Positions 3,037 through 53,618 of a DNA stretch of 64,000 nucleotides are shown here, piece by piece (position 1 is the stretch's first letter; each line of letters starts with the position of its first letter). The stretch comes from Tillus elongatus (lineage: Eukaryota > Arthropoda > Insecta > Coleoptera > Cleridae): contig OZ023267.1 in the NCBI GenBank assembly GCA_964006375.1, positions 31,353,094-31,417,093 of the forward strand, given 5' to 3'. Made by a program: the position numbers and the translations under genes. The notes beneath the pieces are model-generated. The model did no database searches. It saw only the letters and a program-made list of their open reading frames with translations, and was not told where the DNA came from.

Positions 3037-6293
<3,257 letters not shown>

Positions 6294-21137: not shown

Positions 21138-21350
21138 GTAGCCCTTATTTTGTAAAGCTAGATGCATTCTCGCAACAATTACAACAAATTGTTGCGAGAA
21201 TGCATCTAGCTTTACATACTTTGTCCCTACATTAAGGTAGAAATGGACCAGGGATAACAATTTACTAAATTGTTAGTTAGTTGTATACAGTCTCTATTTT
21301 TTTAACACTTTGTGTTATTTGGAAATGGTGTGACAACATACTACTTGGTG
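21138..21350. repeat. Fragment of the 307-bp ribozyme-element family, head-to-head junction, ribozyme lost
   Basis: CTAGATGCATTCTCGCAACA and its inverse meet around a 6-base centre at about 21180, a 28-bp hairpin. The right side continues through CATACTTTGTCCCTACATTA, TTGTTAGTTAGTTGTATAC and TGTGACAACATACTACTTGG, all matching 38.95-39.12 kb. The segment that would hold the hammerhead motif is absent. Confidence 0.75.
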
Positions 21351-22699
21351 GCGGCACGTCCACTGGAACAACAAAGTAAGTCTCGAACTCCCCTTGCAGT
21401 CTTGTAGCACAATGTTCTTGCAGACAGAAACCAGTACCATATAATATCAGCATTTTATAAAGTGATAACACACAAACAGGACGCTAAAGATATATGTGGA
21501 TAATTATAGCGCTCAAAATAAAATTGGGACCTTTTTAGCTTCCTTGTTTATTTAATCAACAAAGAAACAAATCTAAAATTACCGAAAATCAATTATCTGG
21601 AGGGTGCATACTTTTATGATCACCAACAGCTTTCACCACCGAGCCGAGCAATCACTCAAATAGGTGGGCAAAGTATATGATTATGATATTAAGGACTACA
21701 TTAACGGTGAGAAAAGGTCTAGTAACTACCATGTCAACATCAAAGATATGGAGGTAAACAAGTTGCATAATTTTTATGATTTACCATCTAAATATAAACT
21801 AAATATCACCACACAAAAACTGTATTTGTGAAACCTTGTGAAAGTTGATCTCATAAGGGGGCACAATATGCTTTATCAAAAAATTTAGTTTCAATGGAGA
21901 TTTGCAGAATTAAACTTTCCACAGCAAAAGCTTTTGAAGAACGTTATGTTAATTTTGGCATCGTTGAACCTCCCTAAATCGTAAGTGACCGACTGCCTGC
22001 AGAAAAATATAAATAAAGTTATGGATATAAAATATTAAGAATCATTCATCCTCCGATGACTCTAATTTGGTTAGTGAAAAGACCGTGAGGTTTTTTAAGA
22101 TGTGTTGTGGTCATTTGGGCTCGCCATGTGTGCTATCAGTGCTCATCACAGGTTCAAATGTTCACTTAGCACCCTTTATTTACCTACTTTATATACTGGA
22201 AATGTGTGTGTGATTTTATCATTTTTTGAACATCTGTGATGTCAAATATTTGAAAACATTACAGTACTTTTTTATAAAGATGTGCTTTTTATAAAGAAAC
22301 GTTTGTGATTTTATCATCTCTTTGCACGGAATGGAAGTAAATGTGATCGGTTCGATAAAAAGTTTTTTTTAATTAACAGAAAAAGGTAGCTAGGTACTAA
22401 TTTATTAGCAATTACATTGGTTAAAGGCAAAATAAGATAAAGTTTTAAATGTGATATCGGAACGGGATATGTATTTTGTTTAATTTATGGAATTCGAACG
22501 CCACAAAATCAGTGCACAGTGCCGAAGTTTATAAAGAGCGACTGTTATCGCTTTGCAAAATAGATCATCGCATGTTTCTCACTGGATCATGGTTTTATTA
22601 GCTATTGATGATACACGAGGTTTACAGAAAATACTAAAACAATAATGTTGGTTTTATGTTAGGGACTCCTCATAAATATAAGATTTTTCGGCTTCAGGT
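21351..22699. other. Intergenic with a Penelope-like 3' terminus relic near 22050-22165
   Basis: At 22100-22135 the text ATGTGTTGTGGTCATTTGGG, then at 22136-22155 CAGTGCTCATCACAGGTTC, matches the outer terminus of the Penelope-like palindrome (48.10-48.17 kb and 51.26-51.30 kb). Just upstream CCGATGA...GAAA resembles a decayed hammerhead core. The remainder is unassigned. Confidence 0.5.
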
Positions 22700-32444: not shown

Positions 32445-32559
32445 TATTTAAACATGTAAATAACTTAAAAATAAATATTATTTCACCACTGATCAATAAG
32501 TGTATATGTTGTTTGATGTAAGTAATATCTTGTTTACAATTACAAGACTTTTAATTCCT

Positions 32560-33195
32560 AATCAGGAATCTACAAAACCCCGGATACCAAATTCACAATG
32601 ATCAGAGTACATTTTATAACAATCGGTCGCCATTTTTAAACCGCCATTTTGTTTTTGAAAAAAAGAATCTCAGATTCGTTATCAGCAACCTGAAAACCCG
32701 CCAGATATCAAATTTTATCATAATCAGAGTTAACTTCACTATTTCCGCTCGCCATTTTGAAGCCGCCATTTTGTTTTTAATAAAATGGATATAAGATTCG
32801 CAATCAGCGATCCAAAAAATCCCCAGATACAAAATTTCATCATTATCATAGTAAATTTCACAATTTCCGGTCGCCATTTTGAAGCCGCCATTTTGTTTTT
32901 AATAAAATGATTCTCAGATTCGCAATCATCGACCCAAAAAATCCCCAGATACATAATTTCATCATAATCATAGTAAATTTCACCATTTCCGGTCGCCATT
33001 TTGAATCCGCCATTTTGTTTTTGAAAAAAGGATATCAGATTCGTTATCAGCAACCTAAAAAACCCCCAGTTGTCAAATTTTATCATAATCGGAGTAGATT
33101 TCACAATTTCCGGTCGCCATTTTGAAGCCGCCATTTTGTTTTTAATAAAATGGATCTCACATTCGTAATCAGCAACCCCAAAAAACCCCGATACC
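32560..33195. repeat. 122-bp minisatellite inside Transib, about 5 copies
   Basis: CCGCCATTTTGTTTTT recurs at 32641, 32763, 32885, 33007 and 33128, a spacing of 121-122. Each unit also has CAGATTCG(C/T)(A/T)ATCAG, a CC(A/G)ATAC/ATCAAATTTTATCAT-type stretch and CACAATTTCCGGTCGCC. Units are about 85-90 percent alike by eye. Long frames in this array on either strand are repeat artefacts. Confidence 0.93.
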
Positions 33196-37302: not shown

Positions 37303-38652
37303 CTTTCATTTCAAAACCAGTCACCCTTAATAATTCCTTTATCAAGGAAATCTGGTTAAAAAAAAAACAGGTCAATTGGGATTTCGAGGGGCACGTTCAA
37401 AAACAGTATTTTTGGAATTTTACTTTTCACCCCCTAAGCCCCAGCCACCCCAACTTTATTATTTTAAATGACACCCCCTAGCTTGAGATACAACATTTTA
37501 AAGGTATTTAAAATCCTAATCCAACAGCCTTTACGAAATTTAAATCCACCGTCAACTTTTGAATTTAGAAGAAGAAAACCTCATCAAATTCGGAATTTAA
37601 AAAAATTATTATTTAATACTTTAAGACAAAAACCTACTTTATTAAGTGCTCAAAGTGCCCTCCGTTGTTAGCTTAACAATAAAAATAGCCAATTGACGAA
37701 TTGTTGTCTAACGTTTTGAAATGTTTCTGTAGTAATTTGTCGGAAAGCTCGGGTAATCCTATCTTTTAGAACCTGAATATTCTCTGGTGGAGGATTATGG
37801 TACACAACTGGTTTCAAATAACACCAAAGGAAGAAGTCCAGTGGTGTTAAGTCCGGAGATATGGCGGGCCATTCCAGGGCTTTGATTAAGCCACTCGCGA
37901 ACACGTAAGGCATAGTGTGGTGGTGCACCGTCCTGTTGATAGTGCAAATTTTGTTCATTCAGCAGTGGGTTGCCTTCTTCATTAACTTGGTTTTCTAAGG
38001 ACTCTGTTATAAGTGGGTCAATATAATTTTCCAAAAATTTTTAATACAAAGCACCAGTTAAATTTTCTTCAATAGACAAAGGGCCTATTATTTAATTTCC
38101 AAGAATTCCCGCCCAGACAATAATTTTTTGTGGAAACTGTGTATGACCCTCTACGAACACTCGTGGATTTTGATTATCCCAATATCTACAGTTGCGTTTA
38201 TAAGCAAAACCATTCAGAAAGAACGTTGATTCATCACTAAAGCAAATAATCTTTACCAAATTCGTATCGTCTTGAATTCTAGCAGTCATTCATTCACAGA
38301 ATTGAATCCTTCTATCATAATCATCCTCGCCGAGTTCATGAAGAATGGTAAATTTATAAGGAAATAACTTGTAAAGTTTTAAAACGTTATGTATGGAACC
38401 GACGGAAATATTCGTTAATCCAGCGACTTTTGGAACTGAAGTCGTAGAACACTAAGTGAGTAGCGAACGTGTCGCCACCTAGTTCGGAACCAAGTACTAT
38501 GTTGTCACGCCCGCTCCAAATAACACAGAGTATTAAAAATAGAGACGGTATACAACTAACTAACAATTTAAAAAATTGATAGCCCTGGCCCATTTCTACC
38601 CCAATATAGGGACAAAGTATGTAAGACTAGATGCATTCTCGCAACAATTAGA

Positions 38653-38695
38653 ACCGTAGACCGGTTTCGCTCTCATTAGAGCTCTTCAGTACGGC
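38653..38695 (-). ncRNA. Hammerhead ribozyme, type I, minus strand
   Basis: Inverse of the motif at 38901-38943. Core CUGAAGA, stem II GCUCU/AGAGC with an AAUG loop, GAAA, a minimal stem III made by ACCGGU, then the cleavage triplet GUC; stem I CCGUA/UACGG. Confidence 0.82.
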
Positions 38696-38900
38696 ATACT
38701 AATTGCAGCAAAAATGCACCAAAAATAACACGGCTATCGTATAGCCAGTCTTAAAACACTAAGTGAGTAGCGAACGTGTCGCCACCTAGTTCGGAACCAA
38801 GTACTATGTTGTCACGCCCGCTCCAAATAACACAGAGTATTAAAAATAGAGACGGTATACAACCAACTTATTTTTGGTGCATTTTTGCTGCAATTAGTAT

Positions 38901-38943
38901 GCCGTACTGAAGAGCTCTAATGAGAGCGAAACCGGTCTACGGT
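38901..38943 (+). ncRNA. Hammerhead ribozyme, type I, plus strand, first copy
   Basis: All invariant positions are present: CUGAAGA, GAAA and the cleavage triplet GUC. Stem I pairs CCGUA with UACGG, and stem II pairs GCUCU with AGAGC around AAUG. Stem III is only A-C-C/G-G-U, a palindrome with no loop, which in known retroelement hammerheads favours cleavage as dimers. Predicted cleavage after 38937. Confidence 0.85.
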
Positions 38944-39207
38944 TCTAATTGTTGCGAGAATGCATCTAGTCTTACATACTTTGTCCCTATATTGGGGTAG
39001 AAATGGGCCAGGGCTAACAATTTTTTAAATTGTTAGTTAGTTGTATACCGTCTCTATTTTTAATACTCTGTGTTATTTGTAGCGGGCGTGACAACATAGT
39101 ACTTGGTTTCGAACTAGGTGGCGACACGTTCGCTACTCACTTAGTGTTTTAAGACTGGCTATACGATAGCCGTGTTATTTTTGGTGCATTTTTGCTGCAA
39201 TTAGTAT

Positions 39208-39250
39208 GCCGTACTGAAGAGCTCTAATGAGAGCGAAACCGGTCTACGGT
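39208..39250 (+). ncRNA. Hammerhead ribozyme, type I, plus strand, second copy
   Basis: Same 43 bases as the copy 307 bp upstream. Predicted cleavage after 39244, so a transcript across both copies would release a 307-nt monomer (38938-39244). Confidence 0.85.
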
Positions 39251-40206
39251 TCTAATTATTGCGAGAATGCATCTAGTCTTACTGAAGTCGTAGGTTCGGC
39301 GGCAAAAATCCTAAAACCTCAATTTGTGCAGCTTCGTTAAGAACTCGTGGTTGCTTATTTGCTTTGTTACGTACTGAGCCAGTTTCTTCAAATTTTTGTG
39401 CGGTATTACGAGCACACCTATTCTGAGCACCATACAAGTAAATTATTTCAACTCTTTCTTGTGTAGTGTCAACCATGAATGTTAGTTTAATTTAAATTTA
39501 GTATCTTAAATTGAAATAATTTAAATGAGTTTGTTGTTTTCAAAATTTAAAAATCACAACAGACTCGGTTTTAACTCGTTGCAGTCGTCAAGAAATCGAA
39601 CACTAAATACGAATAAGTAACAAAGTTATCAAGAAAGTAAAACTGGTTCATTTTATTGGAAATTTATCGTTAAATTAGACATGGGCGTTATCGTTCCCAT
39701 ATCACCTCGTACCAGGAAAATTGATAGCCGCAAATGGCACCGGGGAGCTAAATTTGCAACAGCATTACGCTCAGAAAAATTATGGATAAAAACAATTCAA
39801 ATGTTAGAAAAAAAATCGACAGTCGACTATTTTAGTGTTAAGCTAACAACGGAGGGCAGTTTGAGCACTTAATAAAGTAGGTTTTTGTCTTAAACTATTA
39901 AATAAATTTTTGGAAAATATTCCGAATTTGATGAGGTTTTTCTTCTAAATTCTAAAGTTGGCGGTTGATTTAAATTTCGTGAACGCCGTTGGATTAGGCT
40001 TTAAAATAACTTTAAAATGATGTATCTCAAGCTACGGGGTGTCATTTAAAATTATACAGTTGGGGTGACTGGGGCTTAGGGGGTAAAATTCCGAAAATAC
40101 TGTTTTTGAACGTGCCCCTCGAAATCCCAATTGACCTGTTTTTTTTTTGAACCAGATTTCTTTGATAAAGAAATTATTAAGGGTGTGGCTAGTTTTGAAA
40201 TGAAAG

Positions 40207-40365: not shown

Positions 40366-41277
<912 letters not shown>

Positions 41278-47227: not shown

Positions 47228-47553
<326 letters not shown>

Positions 47554-48092
47554 AAGTAAGTATTCACTGTAACTAAACCATTGATATCAGGAAAATCCTT
47601 TATGAAATCTATGTTTAAAATTATACAATTTCACCTTAAACTTTTCAATTATCAACTAGATCATTAGCAGGTTATCATTAAAGTAATAGAAGTTGGCAAC
47701 TACTTTACAAGGGCGGTCGGGGCAATTTTAAGATTTAAATCACCGAAAAGATGCCCGAAGTACTCTCGCCTTACGGATGTCACAATCATGCGATTTCTAC
47801 AAGCATTCAAACAAATATTATTATGTAGTGGAACAAATTTTCCCGCTGTCTTGTAATAAGACGTCTCATTTAGCTAACTATTTGTAAAGTTTAGGATCGC
47901 TCTAAAAATGCACACATTTATCAAAAAAAGAGTCAGAGCTAAGAAGAAATCAAGTCTTTTCAGATATTCATTAACCGTTTCTATCAGTTTCCGGCTTTCT
48001 ACTTAGTTGTGCCTGGGAGTAAATACTGCAGACACAAACCCTTGGGGAAATCAGGCCGCCAAAAATGTGAATTTAGAAGCAATATAAGTAAA
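47554..48092. other. Intergenic flank of the Penelope-like palindrome
   Basis: No gene recognised. 48080-48092 (CAATATAAGTAAA) is the left copy of the target duplication. Confidence 0.5.
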
Positions 48093-48175
48093 CTATGTGA
48101 AAACTGGAACCTGTGATGAGCACTAATAAGTACACTTGGAGAACACCCAAATCACCACAACACATATTTCAGAGA

Positions 48176-48216
48176 CCTTACGATCGTTTCGTAGACAAAG
48201 TCTACATCTTCAGAGG
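48176..48216 (-). ncRNA. Penelope-type hammerhead-like motif, left arm
   Basis: Mirror copy of 51211-51251; see that entry. Confidence 0.6.
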
Positions 48217-48799
48217 AAGAAAAATTCTAACATAAAAAAAAAAAACTAGAACCCGTATATTTATATCGCGTCAAAGTAAACGAGCTAGTCCGAAGTAAAG
48301 TTGTCGTCTAACAACGATCATTTGTTTATTGCGACAGTGAAACAGGTCGGAGACCTGCTTTAATCTTTTGGTCGACAAATTTATGACCCTTATCTAATAT
48401 AGGTATTACAAGGACCGGAGTTCTTTAAAGAAACAGCACGTTTCTTTTCGATCTAGAATTTACTATGTGGATATTAGTTCATGCCGACAAAGACATCTGG
48501 TGCGATAACAAACCGTAAACTCAACTCATCTCTTTTAAAAATAGAAAACTAAAACCCAGATGTCTGTCTCACCGTGTTAACTTTAACAAAGGAAAATAGT
48601 TCAACTAAAATACTACATACAAACTATATTTATATTGATTTTAATTCTACGTGAAAATATTTATCTTGACTACATATATACAACAACCGAAACCGGTATT
48701 TAAATCAAGAAAAACATACTAATTAGTATATGTATAAACCGGTCGAGTTATTGGCAATAATTTATTGTTCTACCAGACAAATTAGGAGTATTTAAGCGG

Positions 48800-49699
48800 T
48801 CAAATGCAAAGAGAGAACAAAGAGCTAGAAATTACAGGTGCCGCACGATTTAATGAAGTTTTGTTCTTAATAGACCTTAATATAAAAATACTTTCTAATG
48901 AATCAAGCATAGTTTGATGTCTGACATTTTTGACAAGTTTCAAATTTTCTTTGTCAATGTGGTGGTTATTATCCCATATATGTTGTGCCACACATGATTT
49001 GTCCACCGTACCATATCGTAACTGTGAGAGATGTTCACGAAATCTGGTGGCTATGTTTCTTCTAGTTTGGCCCACGTATTTAAGATCACAATCTTTGCAA
49101 CTAATCTCATAAATTCCAGACATTTCCGTGACTTGGTCTTTGTCTTTCGTATTACCCAACAAATTTTTTAAATTACTTTTCGTCGAAAACGTCAAATGTA
49201 AATCGGCTTTCTTAAAAATACATTCCAAACCCTTTGTGATTCGTGGTTCATAAGGTAAGCACACAAATTTTTTCTCGATTTTATCATTCTTAAATGTCGT
49301 ACATTCAGATATCAACTTCTTTGTTCTGTGTTTGTTAACTAATTTGTCTATTAAACCATCCGAGTAACCGTTATAACTCGCCACATTTTTTATGTATTTT
49401 AATTCTGTATTAAATCTATTTTTACTCAACGGAAATTTGATCAATCTATTTACTAAGAAATTTAAACTAGCCGTTTTTTGTGCAAACGCATGATGTGAGT
49501 CATTAGGAATATAACTAATAGTAGCCGTTTCCTTCCTATAGACATCAAATTCAAGCGAGCATTTATTTTTGATAACTAGTACATCTAGGAACGAAAGTTT
49601 ATTGTTGTTTTCTATTTCGTGGGTAAATTTTATTGAATCAAATTGACTATTTAGTTTTTCAGTAAATTCTTCTACCTTACATGTATTTGTGTCAAACAC
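48800..49699 (-). CDS. Penelope-like reverse transcriptase C-terminus plus GIY-YIG endonuclease (left arm), partial
   Basis: 299 residues, identical to the right-arm protein but starting 14 residues later, after the RT catalytic motif. Begins VFDTNTCKVEEF, runs through the RT thumb and linker, and ends with the GIY-YIG nuclease: GIYEISCKDCDLKYVGQTRR, RFREHLSQLRYG and a late ESIFI segment. The nuclease cuts target DNA in intact elements. The 5' two thirds of the gene are missing at the palindrome centre and there is no proper start codon (GTG in the frame). Confidence 0.9.
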   Translation of the reverse strand: MFDTNTCKVEEFTEKLNSQFDSIKFTHEIENNNKLSFLDVLVIKNKCSLEFDVYRKETATISYIPNDSHHAFAQKTASLNFLVNRLIKFPLSKNRFNTELKYIKNVASYNGYSDGLIDKLVNKHRTKKLISECTTFKNDKIEKKFVCLPYEPRITKGLECIFKKADLHLTFSTKSNLKNLLGNTKDKDQVTEMSGIYEISCKDCDLKYVGQTRRNIATRFREHLSQLRYGTVDKSCVAQHIWDNNHHIDKENLKLVKNVRHQTMLDSLESIFILRSIKNKTSLNRAAPVISSSLFSLCI

Positions 49700-50630
49700 T
49701 GCAAAATGTTATGTCGATGATATTTTTGCAGTGTTTGACACAAATACATGTAAGGTAGAAGAATTTACTGAAAAACTAAATAGTCAATTTGATTCAATAA
49801 AATTTACCCACGAAATAGAAAACAACAATAAACTTTCGTTCCTAGATGTACTAGTTATCAAAAATAAATGCTCGCTTGAATTTGATGTCTATAGGAAGGA
49901 AACGGCTACTATTAGTTATATTCCTAATGACTCACATCATGCGTTTGCACAAAAAACGGCTAGTTTAAATTTCTTAGTAAATAGATTGATCAAATTTCCG
50001 TTGAGTAAAAATAGATTTAATACAGAATTAAAATACATAAAAAATGTGGCGAGTTATAACGGTTACTCGGATGGTTTAATAGACAAATTAGTTAACAAAC
50101 ACAGAACAAAGAAGTTGATATCTGAATGTACGACATTTAAGAATGATAAAATCGAGAAAAAATTTGTGTGCTTACCTTATGAACCACGAATCACAAAGGG
50201 TTTGGAATGTATTTTTAAGAAAGCCGATTTACATTTGACGTTTTCGACGAAAAGTAATTTAAAAAATTTGTTGGGTAATACGAAAGACAAAGACCAAGTC
50301 ACGGAAATGTCTGGAATTTATGAGATTAGTTGCAAAGATTGTGATCTTAAATACGTGGGCCAAACTAGAAGAAACATAGCCACCAGATTTCGTGAACATC
50401 TCTCACAGTTACGATATGGTACGGTGGACAAATCATGTGTGGCACAACATATATGGGATAATAACCACCACATTGACAAAGAAAATTTGAAACTTGTCAA
50501 AAATGTCAGACATCAAACTATGCTTGATTCATTAGAAAGTATTTTTATATTAAGGTCTATTAAGAACAAAACTTCATTAAATCGTGCGGCACCTGTAATT
50601 TCTAGCTCTTTGTTCTCTCTTTGCATTTGA
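49689..50630 (+). CDS. Penelope-like reverse transcriptase C-terminus plus GIY-YIG endonuclease (right arm), partial
   Basis: The open frame of 313 codons enters from the palindrome centre. CYVDDIFAVFD holds the RT catalytic YVDD (49707-49727). LSFLDVLVIKNKCSLEFDVY follows, then the connector rich in Lys, then the GIY-YIG domain: GIYEISCKDCDLKYVGQTRR (about residues 227-246), the catalytic-type Arg and REHL, with a Glu in DSLESIFIL near the end. A CxxC-like CKDC sits in the GIY-YIG motif, as in many members of this class. The true protein would begin several hundred residues upstream, so this is a 5'-truncated copy. Whether it is translated is doubtful. Confidence 0.92.
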   Translation: MSNTAKCYVDDIFAVFDTNTCKVEEFTEKLNSQFDSIKFTHEIENNNKLSFLDVLVIKNKCSLEFDVYRKETATISYIPNDSHHAFAQKTASLNFLVNRLIKFPLSKNRFNTELKYIKNVASYNGYSDGLIDKLVNKHRTKKLISECTTFKNDKIEKKFVCLPYEPRITKGLECIFKKADLHLTFSTKSNLKNLLGNTKDKDQVTEMSGIYEISCKDCDLKYVGQTRRNIATRFREHLSQLRYGTVDKSCVAQHIWDNNHHIDKENLKLVKNVRHQTMLDSLESIFILRSIKNKTSLNRAAPVISSSLFSLCI

Positions 50631-51210
50631 CCGCTTAAATACTCCTAATTTGTCTGGTAGAACAATAAATTATTGCCAATAACTCGACCGGTTTATACAT
50701 ATACTAATTAGTATGTTTTTCTTGATTTAAATACCGGTTTCGGTTGTTGTATATATGTAGTCAAGATAAATATTTTCACGTAGAATTAAAATCAATATAA
50801 ATATAGTTTGTATGTAGTATTTTAGTTGAACTATTTTCCTTTGTTAAAGTTAACACGGTGAGACAGACATCTGGGTTTTAGTTTTCTATTTTTAAAAGAG
50901 ATGAGTTGAGTTTACGGTTTGTTATCGCACCAGATGTCTTTGTCGGCATGAACTAATATCCACATAGTAAATTCTAGATCGAAAAGAAACGTGCTGTTTC
51001 TTTAAAGAACTCCGGTCCTTGTAATACCTATATTAGATAAGGGTCATAAATTTGTCGACCAAAAGATTAAAGCAGGTCTCCGACCTGTTTCACTGTCGCA
51101 ATAAACAAATGATCGTTGTTAGACGACAACTTTACTTCGGACTAGCTCGTTTACTTTGACGCGATATAAATATACGGGTTCTAGTTTTTTTTTATGTTAG
51201 AATTTTTCTT

Positions 51211-51251
51211 CCTCTGAAGATGTAGACTTTGTCTACGAAACGATCGTAAGG
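51211..51251 (+). ncRNA. Penelope-type hammerhead-like motif, right arm
   Basis: CUGAAGA, an extra U, stem II GUAGAC/GUCUAC with loop UUU, GAAA, a short stem III ACG/CGU, and triplet GUA, with stem I CCU/AGG. It sits 580 bp after the coding stop, in the 3' terminal repeat region, where Penelope-like elements are known to carry hammerheads. The extra base before stem II makes activity uncertain. Confidence 0.6.
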
Positions 51252-51314
51252 TCTCTGAAATATGTGTTGTGGTGATTTGGGTGTTCTCCAAGTGTACTTA
51301 TCAATATAAGTAAA

Positions 51315-53249: not shown

Positions 53250-53618
53250 CTATTTGTGTGTTTTTAATAAATATATAATAGGTTTCCAAGTGGTCGGAAG
53301 GCGAAGACCATCATCTCTCTTATTTAAACAATCGAGACGTTTTTCAATCTCGATTGCTTCGCGGATAATTCTCAGTTTGAAGTTGTAAACCGGTGCTATT
53401 GTTTTGGCATTTTCGAAGTCTGTTTTGTATCCTGTATGAATATGATGCATGGCCAGCGCCGATGAGGGGTCGGATTTTCTAACTGCGAGGGTGTGTTCAT
53501 ATATTCTATTGTGGATGCGTCTGTTTGTTTGTCCTACGTAAGTTCGGTAACAGTCGGAGCAAGGAATTTCGTAAACTCCGTGGGATTCGGTTGGACTCGT
53601 ATCTTCAGGAGTATCCAA
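53250..53618 (-). pseudogene. Penelope-like GIY-YIG endonuclease domain, partial
   Basis: 122 codons. GVYEIPCSDCYRTYVGQTNR, then IHNRIYEHTLAVR, HHIHTGYKTDF and REAIEIEKRLDCLNKRDDG. This contains the GIY-YIG core with the CSDC pair, the Arg and the late Glu region. It is clearly a different family from the 48-51 kb element. The RT domain is missing upstream because the sequence joins the inverted terminal repeat at 53.6 kb. The frame begins at a TTG, so no true start exists. Confidence 0.85.

Follow-up and report, generated by a model that had tools for sequence, protein, structure and literature searches.

A usually mirrored hammerhead retrozyme with two fixed ends in the beetle Tillus elongatus, probably copied by a Penelope-like enzyme

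Background

The described elements that come closest to the one reported here are of two kinds. Metazoan (non-LTR) retrozymes, in the portion of PMC7229834 considered here, are short, non-coding repeats that carry a type I hammerhead ribozyme and occur as tandem copies; the present element shares these properties and is also alike in its GC content of 40%, its target duplications of more than 4 bp and its predicted rod-like circular fold. However, the same portion describes the metazoan retrozymes as tandem repeats, the words 'inverted', 'opposite' and 'head-to-head' being absent from its text, whereas the present element usually consists of opposed arrays whose two ends are fixed. Penelope-like elements (PLEs) are named there as a strong candidate carrier of these retrozymes.

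The PLEs with inverted pLTRs and a 'tail' (PMC11167929 and part of PMC3846280) are likewise arranged head-to-head, with target duplications of 8-13 bp and a hammerhead motif, and also have two ends, namely, alternative 3' ends about 30-40 nt apart. By contrast, PLEs encode a reverse transcriptase (RT) and a GIY-YIG endonuclease and the 307-bp unit of the retrozyme encodes nothing; moreover, the apparent start sites of the retrozyme lie about 170 nt apart on its 307-nt unit and are adjacent solely in the predicted fold, and every clean retrozyme copy has one of each. The part of PMC3846280 considered here explains the head-to-head PLE repeats by self-priming. The PLE protein of the anole has been found to cut and extend both strands, starting at two internal positions of the RNA that agree with the genomic 'tail'; in vitro, no strand difference in the start site was seen and the hammerhead was dispensable, which speaks against part of the mechanism proposed below, and the later steps of integration were left for validation (PMC11167929).

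Metazoan retrozymes, PLE inverted repeats and PLE tails are, then, already known (PMC11167929 and portions of PMC7229834, PMC3846280 and PMC8969392). No report of mirrored retrozymes was found by title and abstract in a literature scarce in subscription papers and, on this evidence, a usually mirrored retrozyme with two fixed ends is a new form. Its analysis bears on the integration of metazoan retrozymes and on the completion of PLE integration, which are left open in the considered portion of PMC7229834 and in PMC11167929, respectively.

Anatomy of the insertion

The analysed stretch (hereafter, the window) comprises 64,000 nucleotides of contig OZ023267.1 of Tillus elongatus (assembly GCA_964006375.1). 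Repeat comparison of the window delineates an insertion of 833 bp (38448-39280) inside a 13-bp target duplication, ACTGAAGTCGTAG; together with mapping of the unit, it confirms the size, the duplication, the 307-bp period and the two opposed arrays that an initial annotation had reported from the letters of the sequence (Table 1). The direct repeats spaced by 307 are 98% identical on the left (38440-38561 and 38747-38868) and 99% identical on the right (38868-38975 and 39175-39282), and the inverted arms are 98% complementary. When the unit (307 bp, GC 0.404) is numbered from phase 0 at 38938, the first base after the predicted cut, the left array extends from an outer end at a site that we denote B (phase 210) to an inner end at phase 97, and the right array from an inner end at phase 237 to an outer end at site A (phase 35).

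Table 1. Features of the retrozyme insertion, its host transposon and related elements in the window
Feature	Positions	Strand	Basis and details
Host transposon, broken, mariner/Tc1-like (presumed)	37640..39890 (approximate bounds)	-	inverted ends, weak HTH, joined-flank frames
Left target-duplication copy	38435..38447	+	13 bp, exact match to 39281-39293
Left array	38448..38868	-	421 nt, 1.37 units; unit mapping
Hammerhead motif, left array	38637..38707	-	Rfam HH9, 30.4 bits, E 2.4e-5
Right array	38868..39280	+	413 nt, 1.35 units; unit mapping
First hammerhead, right array	38889..38959	+	HH9, 30.4 bits; predicted cut after 38937
Second hammerhead, right array	39196..39266	+	HH9, 30.8 bits, E 1.8e-5; predicted cut after 39244
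Right target-duplication copy	39281..39293	+	13 bp, exact match to 38435-38447
Short mirrored copy, second subfamily, diverged	21151..21370	+	arms start near hammerhead cut site; B end damaged
3' end of second PLE family	22076..22169	+	ends in TTCACTTAG, like retrozyme B end
Mirrored PLE, 5'-truncated	48093..51301	.	arms 99.5% identical; GIY-YIG 30.5 bits
PLE right-arm hammerhead-like core	51214..51248	+	motif match; mirror copy 48179-48213, minus

As initially claimed, the insert contains no coding sequence, the longest stop-free stretch in a frame scan being 59 codons; a frame for an RT and GIY-YIG endonuclease of its own, as in PLEs, is absent. The unit falls within the range of metazoan retrozymes, which are tandem repeats of 150-450 bp with a GC content below 50% and no coding capacity. 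The surrounding sequence looks like a broken transposon, which we take to be mariner/Tc1-like, in agreement with the proposed insertion into a mariner gene: the flanks have 525-bp inverted ends of 90% identity and a helix-turn-helix match of 20.6 bits, just under the Pfam cut-off of 22.6, and, once joined, transposase-like blocks recognized by eye in different frames.

The initial annotation also placed a full hammerhead in each array, and the Rfam model HH9 yields one full-length match in the left array and two in the right one, with the predicted plus-strand cuts at exactly the positions proposed before. The three matches, at 30-31 bits, are all below the gathering score of 52 (their E-values, about 2e-5, refer to a search of 1151 bases), and a scan of the whole window with Rfam at the gathering threshold produced no matches. 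The genome-wide HH9 search counts against the assignment as well, with four matches listed and none over the cut-off (58 of 118272 candidates scored). These four, at 34-37 bits, score above the retrozyme's own motifs and lie at loci outside the mapped set; they may represent another hammerhead family. The 12-nt hammerhead core is intact in 205 of the 220 fully covered units, and the letters of stem III, ACCGGU, are self-complementary, as is the case in hammerheads acting as dimers, which are mentioned in the considered part of PMC7761336. A match to MIR821 was set aside as a chance hairpin.

Genome-wide copies and the two-end rule

When the genome (1.72 Gb, 30 contigs) was searched, the insert gave 1211 first-look candidates and a single unit gave 455, with the best 40 scored in each case; the genome carries hundreds to thousands of candidate copies in which the reaction is recorded. 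We mapped 58 distinct loci of the window's subfamily (L001, L009-L047 and L049-L066), which, being the best-scoring ones, are probably young copies. Two arms within an exact target duplication of 11-18 bp (12-14 bp in 34 cases), within the range of more than 4 bp seen in metazoan retrozymes, were found at 39 of these loci, each duplication having a different sequence. Without exception, these 39 loci start with a minus-strand array on the left and finish with a plus-strand array on the right, and one outer end is at phase 32-38 (A) and the other one at phase 201-212 (B), most commonly 208 (11 of 39). Outer ends of the A/A or B/B type never occur among these clean loci, and under a free choice of A or B by each DNA end, the probability of such an outcome would be 2^-39. 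Save for short filler at some joints, the inserts are unit sequence throughout, and both outer ends adjoin the duplication directly, with no poly(A) or simple-repeat 3' tail. Head-to-head arms, two alternative 3' ends and one duplication, the hallmarks of PLE-type insertions, are present in 39 of 39. Two of the clean loci, L035 and L047, are four-armed; like L116 of the second subfamily, they would represent nested insertions or extra template jumps.

The other mapped loci are less regular. A/B ends are also found in L013, inside an AT repeat that renders the duplication uninformative, in L025 and L034, with an imperfect duplication, and in L040, with no convincing one. Two-armed L016, L017, L020 and L051, which have another outer end and in which the duplication was not found, count against the rule. 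L022, L023, L029, L052 and L057 extend past the fetched sequence or stop too near its edge, L023 reading A/B, and L036, L042, L061, L063, L064 and L065 are one-armed in appearance; inspection by eye reveals a short inverted remnant in L036 and, in L064, a concealed B arm of about 18 nt. Because a single-unit query holds no mirror and 33 of the 40 loci that it retrieved are mirrored all the same (one has a remnant second arm, four are one-armed and two unclassed), the mirror is not produced by the mirrored query.

The mapped loci support the original reading of the insertion as a copy of a non-coding, hammerhead-bearing, retrozyme-like, multi-copy repeat. The genome search proposed along with it reveals many copies, those examined usually having the form of a mirrored array with A and B outer ends, and at the 39 clean loci, made of unit sequence end to end, the unit is thus more than a terminal repeat belonging to some coding element.

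Selection on the ribozyme and the RNA fold

Variants shared by every unit of one insert, here called pre-insertion variants, provide a natural selection test for the ribozyme and the fold. They occur at 2 of 61 hammerhead sites compared to 46 of 246 other sites (p 0.0015); the later, unit-private changes are almost as frequent in the motif (89 of 12954 base observations) as elsewhere (497 of 58650). For the 12-nt core alone, there are no pre-insertion changes against 13 later ones (p 0.046). Predicted pairs are kept in 20 of 27 distinct pre-insertion cases, as opposed to 96 of 209 private changes (p 0.007).

The predicted circular fold of the unit is 6.6 SD below 300 shuffles. For 93 of 97 complete units, the predicted fold places A and B on opposite sides of one helix, an arrangement reached by chance in 3 of 300 shuffles and in 11 of 307 rotations of both sites on the real fold. 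The two sites meet at an internal loop (A36-U212, C37 against U210-U211, A38-U209) with predicted pair probabilities of 0.68-0.80. The A/B strands show no depletion of pre-insertion changes relative to the other positions (p 0.46), which counts against this part of the picture.

Penelope-like elements of the same genome

The mirrored PLE in the window lies within a 13-bp duplication (48080-48092 and 51302-51314). At the outer end, its left arm exceeds the right one by 33 nt, and the right arm has, at its inner end, a short stretch that the left one lacks; the joint has short inverted repeats around a loop of about 17 nt, which would also allow snap-back. Its closest named protein relatives, at 54-55% identity, are from longhorn beetles. 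Rfam did not find the hammerhead-like core, and a search of solved structures with a piece of the PLE gave no match. The search for this family yielded 2743 first-look candidates, of which the best 40 were scored and are 99-100% identical; the family is young and abundant.

Two further insertions, L068 and L069, are mirrored within 13-bp duplications; one of their ends (end1) is GTACTTAT or a few nucleotides short of it, and the other (end2) is CACATAG, with TG added in L068. All three insertions of the family that could be read at both ends (the window PLE, L068 and L069) are mirrored and possess one end1 and one end2, which are 33 nt apart. L067 is a tandem and mirrored array with an open frame of 789 aa, its right end being beyond the fetched stretch; among 20 additional end2 stretches, one is followed by a further tandem copy and the remaining 19 by different sequence. 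A facing of end1 and end2 in one stem was rejected, as the two lie in the loops of two neighbouring predicted hairpins. The end2 terminus of L069 (109-127) holds a nine-base tandem duplication (TTCACATAG twice in sense), as if the RT had slipped at its start hairpin.

Retrozyme targets weakly prefer GTTA (14 of 78 flanks, against a background of 7%). None of 19 ends of the window PLE family carries the motif (one version of the target tabulation used 17 of 20 ends, without L070, L079 and L087), so this particular family may not be the driver of the retrozyme. A second PLE family gave 3118 candidates, with the best 40 scored; all 20 ends examined contain CACTTAG and 6 of the 20, by eye, contain TCACTTAGTG, the ten bases found at retrozyme phase 199-208, which terminate at the commonest B phase. 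It is the position alone that makes this ten-base match notable, free local alignment of the unit with PLE ends being no better than with shuffles; the remainder of the PLE end has no similarity to the retrozyme beyond chance. A shared interior of the retrozyme and the PLE 'tail' was likewise discarded as not beyond chance. Site A has CTTA in common with PLE end1 and nothing else, which counts against the mechanism proposed below. A second PLE-like C-terminal frame (window 53250-53618, minus strand) resembles GIY-YIG by eye and has no Pfam match.

The two-end anatomy of the PLEs (3 of 3) and the likeness of the terminal motif indirectly favour the initial suggestion that the retrozyme is mobilized by a PLE enzyme in trans, and we consider it very likely that a PLE supplies the copying enzyme.

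A second retrozyme subfamily

A second subfamily, about 87-90% identical, produced 2745 first-look candidates, with the best 40 scored, and eight of its loci were examined. L114 and L117 are mirrored and follow the A/B rule (duplications of 11 bp, exact, and 12 bp with one mismatch, respectively), L113 and L115 consist of plus units alone and L116 has four arms. In L110-L112, which span 227-250 bp, the A arm measures about 40 nt and the B arm about 200 nt, and each stops within about 10 nt of the hammerhead cut; the duplication is 12 bp with one mismatch in L112 and 9 bp with one mismatch in L110, and there is none in L111. This shape appears to be the expected trace of copying a cut, uncircularised RNA. 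These three loci were picked via the window copy of like shape (Table 1), so their frequency is uninformative. In the first subfamily, 8 of 82 inner ends lie at phase 0-9, just after the cut, compared to 2.7 expected (p 0.005); when the 10 nt before the cut are counted as well, the number is 9 of 82 (p 0.09). Metazoan retrozymes are expressed as self-cleaved linear and circular RNA, and the inner ends near the cut, together with the depletion of pre-insertion variants in the hammerhead, lend indirect support to such RNAs here. Tests for RT stops at hairpins gave weak results: 5 of 82 inner ends are just 3' of phase 219-233 (p 0.04), and 5 of 82 just 3' of phase 78-99 (p 0.06).

Integration mechanism and its alternatives

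We propose that a PLE enzyme acting in trans probably makes these insertions by bilateral (twin) target-primed reverse transcription, the template being an RNA that is cut by the hammerhead and is often circular. Array transcripts would cut themselves at the hammerheads and then be closed into circles, whereas the enzyme would cut both DNA strands about 11-15 nt apart, leaving 3' overhangs. On either side, the duplication separates the flank from the point at which the cDNA starts; with direct priming, the 3' overhangs would thus have the same length as the duplication. Both 3' ends of the single staggered break would prime on the same 307-nt RNA, one overhang starting at A and the other at B, two sites that the folded RNA would hold on opposite strands of a single helix. 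Each copy would then follow the RNA for up to about 15 turns of the circle, or to the cut end if the RNA is uncircularised, and the two copy ends would be joined, often sharing a few bases, to give two plus-sense arrays that point outwards.

The arms of the 41 unambiguous A/B loci (82 inner ends) are unequal, and neither site favours the longer one, the A arm exceeding the B arm in 20 cases; the medians are 1.91 (A) and 1.41 (B) units, and the maxima 14.75 and 8.43 units. A longer arm tends to be accompanied by a shorter partner (Spearman correlation of the lengths -0.43, p 0.006). According to raw counts, 31 of 48 two-arm joints overlap by 0-4 bases and 12 contain filler.

The alternative that survives best retains bilateral priming but has uniform young arrays transcribed into linear, uncut multimers, which would take the place of circles as the template of the multi-unit arms. 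This appears unlikely in view of the similarity of units, which differ by 0.9% within an arm and 1.3% between the arms of one insert, against 3.4% between inserts. When the right arms were shuffled among 43 loci in 1000 permutations, the pairings differed by 3.7% (minimum 3.0%), compared to 1.8% for the two arms of one locus, which have template variants in common. At the eight most polymorphic sites, units are mixed in 35 of 434 locus-sites, far under the approximately 278 expected for free drawing, and the depletion of pre-insertion variants in the hammerhead also argues against uncut transcripts. There is evidence in favour of this alternative, too: mixing is commoner at the polymorphic sites than elsewhere (455 of 16183), foremost in L035, L039 and L040, and private variants are in part common to several loci (71 of 265); for some inserts, more than one template may thus have been used. 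For most inserts, the data fit a single template, and the likeness of their units is consistent with rolling around one RNA circle; that a circle is the usual template seems likely, if slightly less so than the proposed mechanism as a whole.

Another possibility is that one cDNA folds back and copies itself, producing head-to-head arms, as proposed for rotifer PLEs and, in the considered portion of PMC3846280, for PLE inverted repeats with palindromic joints. The hairpin-like joint of the window PLE would suit such self-priming, which is nevertheless quite improbable here and was set aside on the inner and outer phases of the arms. The inner ends are no closer than chance (4 of 41 pairs within 10 nt against 2.8 expected; 7 of 41 within 20 nt against 5.5), the outer ends differ in 39 of 39 loci, and each arm of the window PLE has bases missing from the other one, namely, the 33 nt at the left outer end and the short stretch at the right inner end. 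The use of a different start site by each DNA end is not predicted by self-priming. Taken together, two different fixed outer ends, unequal arms and chance-level inner ends fit priming from both DNA ends, and for the same reasons, the template switch onto the other strand that the initial annotation had offered as one origin of the mirror is not supported.

In LINE-1 twin priming, both DNA ends prime on one RNA, yielding an inverted and a direct part inside one duplication. A LINE-type enzyme engaged in ordinary twin priming could, by virtue of this similar geometry, be invoked for the retrozyme, and the window has frames resembling a LINE RT by eye (with no Pfam match for the one tested). Yet in LINE-1, this is a by-product with a free internal start, whereas here, it is the usual product, with dedicated starts and multi-turn arrays: the mirror is the rule among the copies examined, the outer ends have no poly(A) or simple tail, and the two-end rule and the terminal motif are common to PLEs of the same genome. 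We regard a LINE enzyme as no more probable than self-priming. Finally, two separate insertions, integration of a preformed dimer (the other origin initially suggested for the mirror) or later inversion by recombination are very improbable and were discounted, given that a single duplication, different in each case, encloses both unequal arms in 39 loci, always with one A and one B end, and that the mirror recurs in most of the copies examined, even if four-armed L035 and L047 show that secondary events do happen.

Bilateral priming as proposed above may extend beyond the retrozyme. We give somewhat better than even chances to a common integration mode of retrozymes and PLEs, in which one enzyme uses two start signals side by side and both DNA ends are copied at once; a dimeric enzyme would hold the RNA, and each 3' DNA end would take one signal and, where the RNA is a circle, roll around it. 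If this is true, retrozyme and PLE integration normally yields mirrored double arrays, and three features so far described apart from one another, namely, the tandem copies, the inverted pLTRs and the optional PLE 'tail', follow from a single rule. That each insertion has an A end and a B end, with two defined starts on a 307-nt RNA, is directly testable.

Other repeats in the window

The window contains many long, near-perfect (AT)n tracts, such as those at 4549-4748, 40950-41152 and 47253-47438, and tracts of this kind end some retrozyme and PLE copies (L013, L079 and L087). A 122-bp tandem repeat is present in about five copies at 32554-33194.
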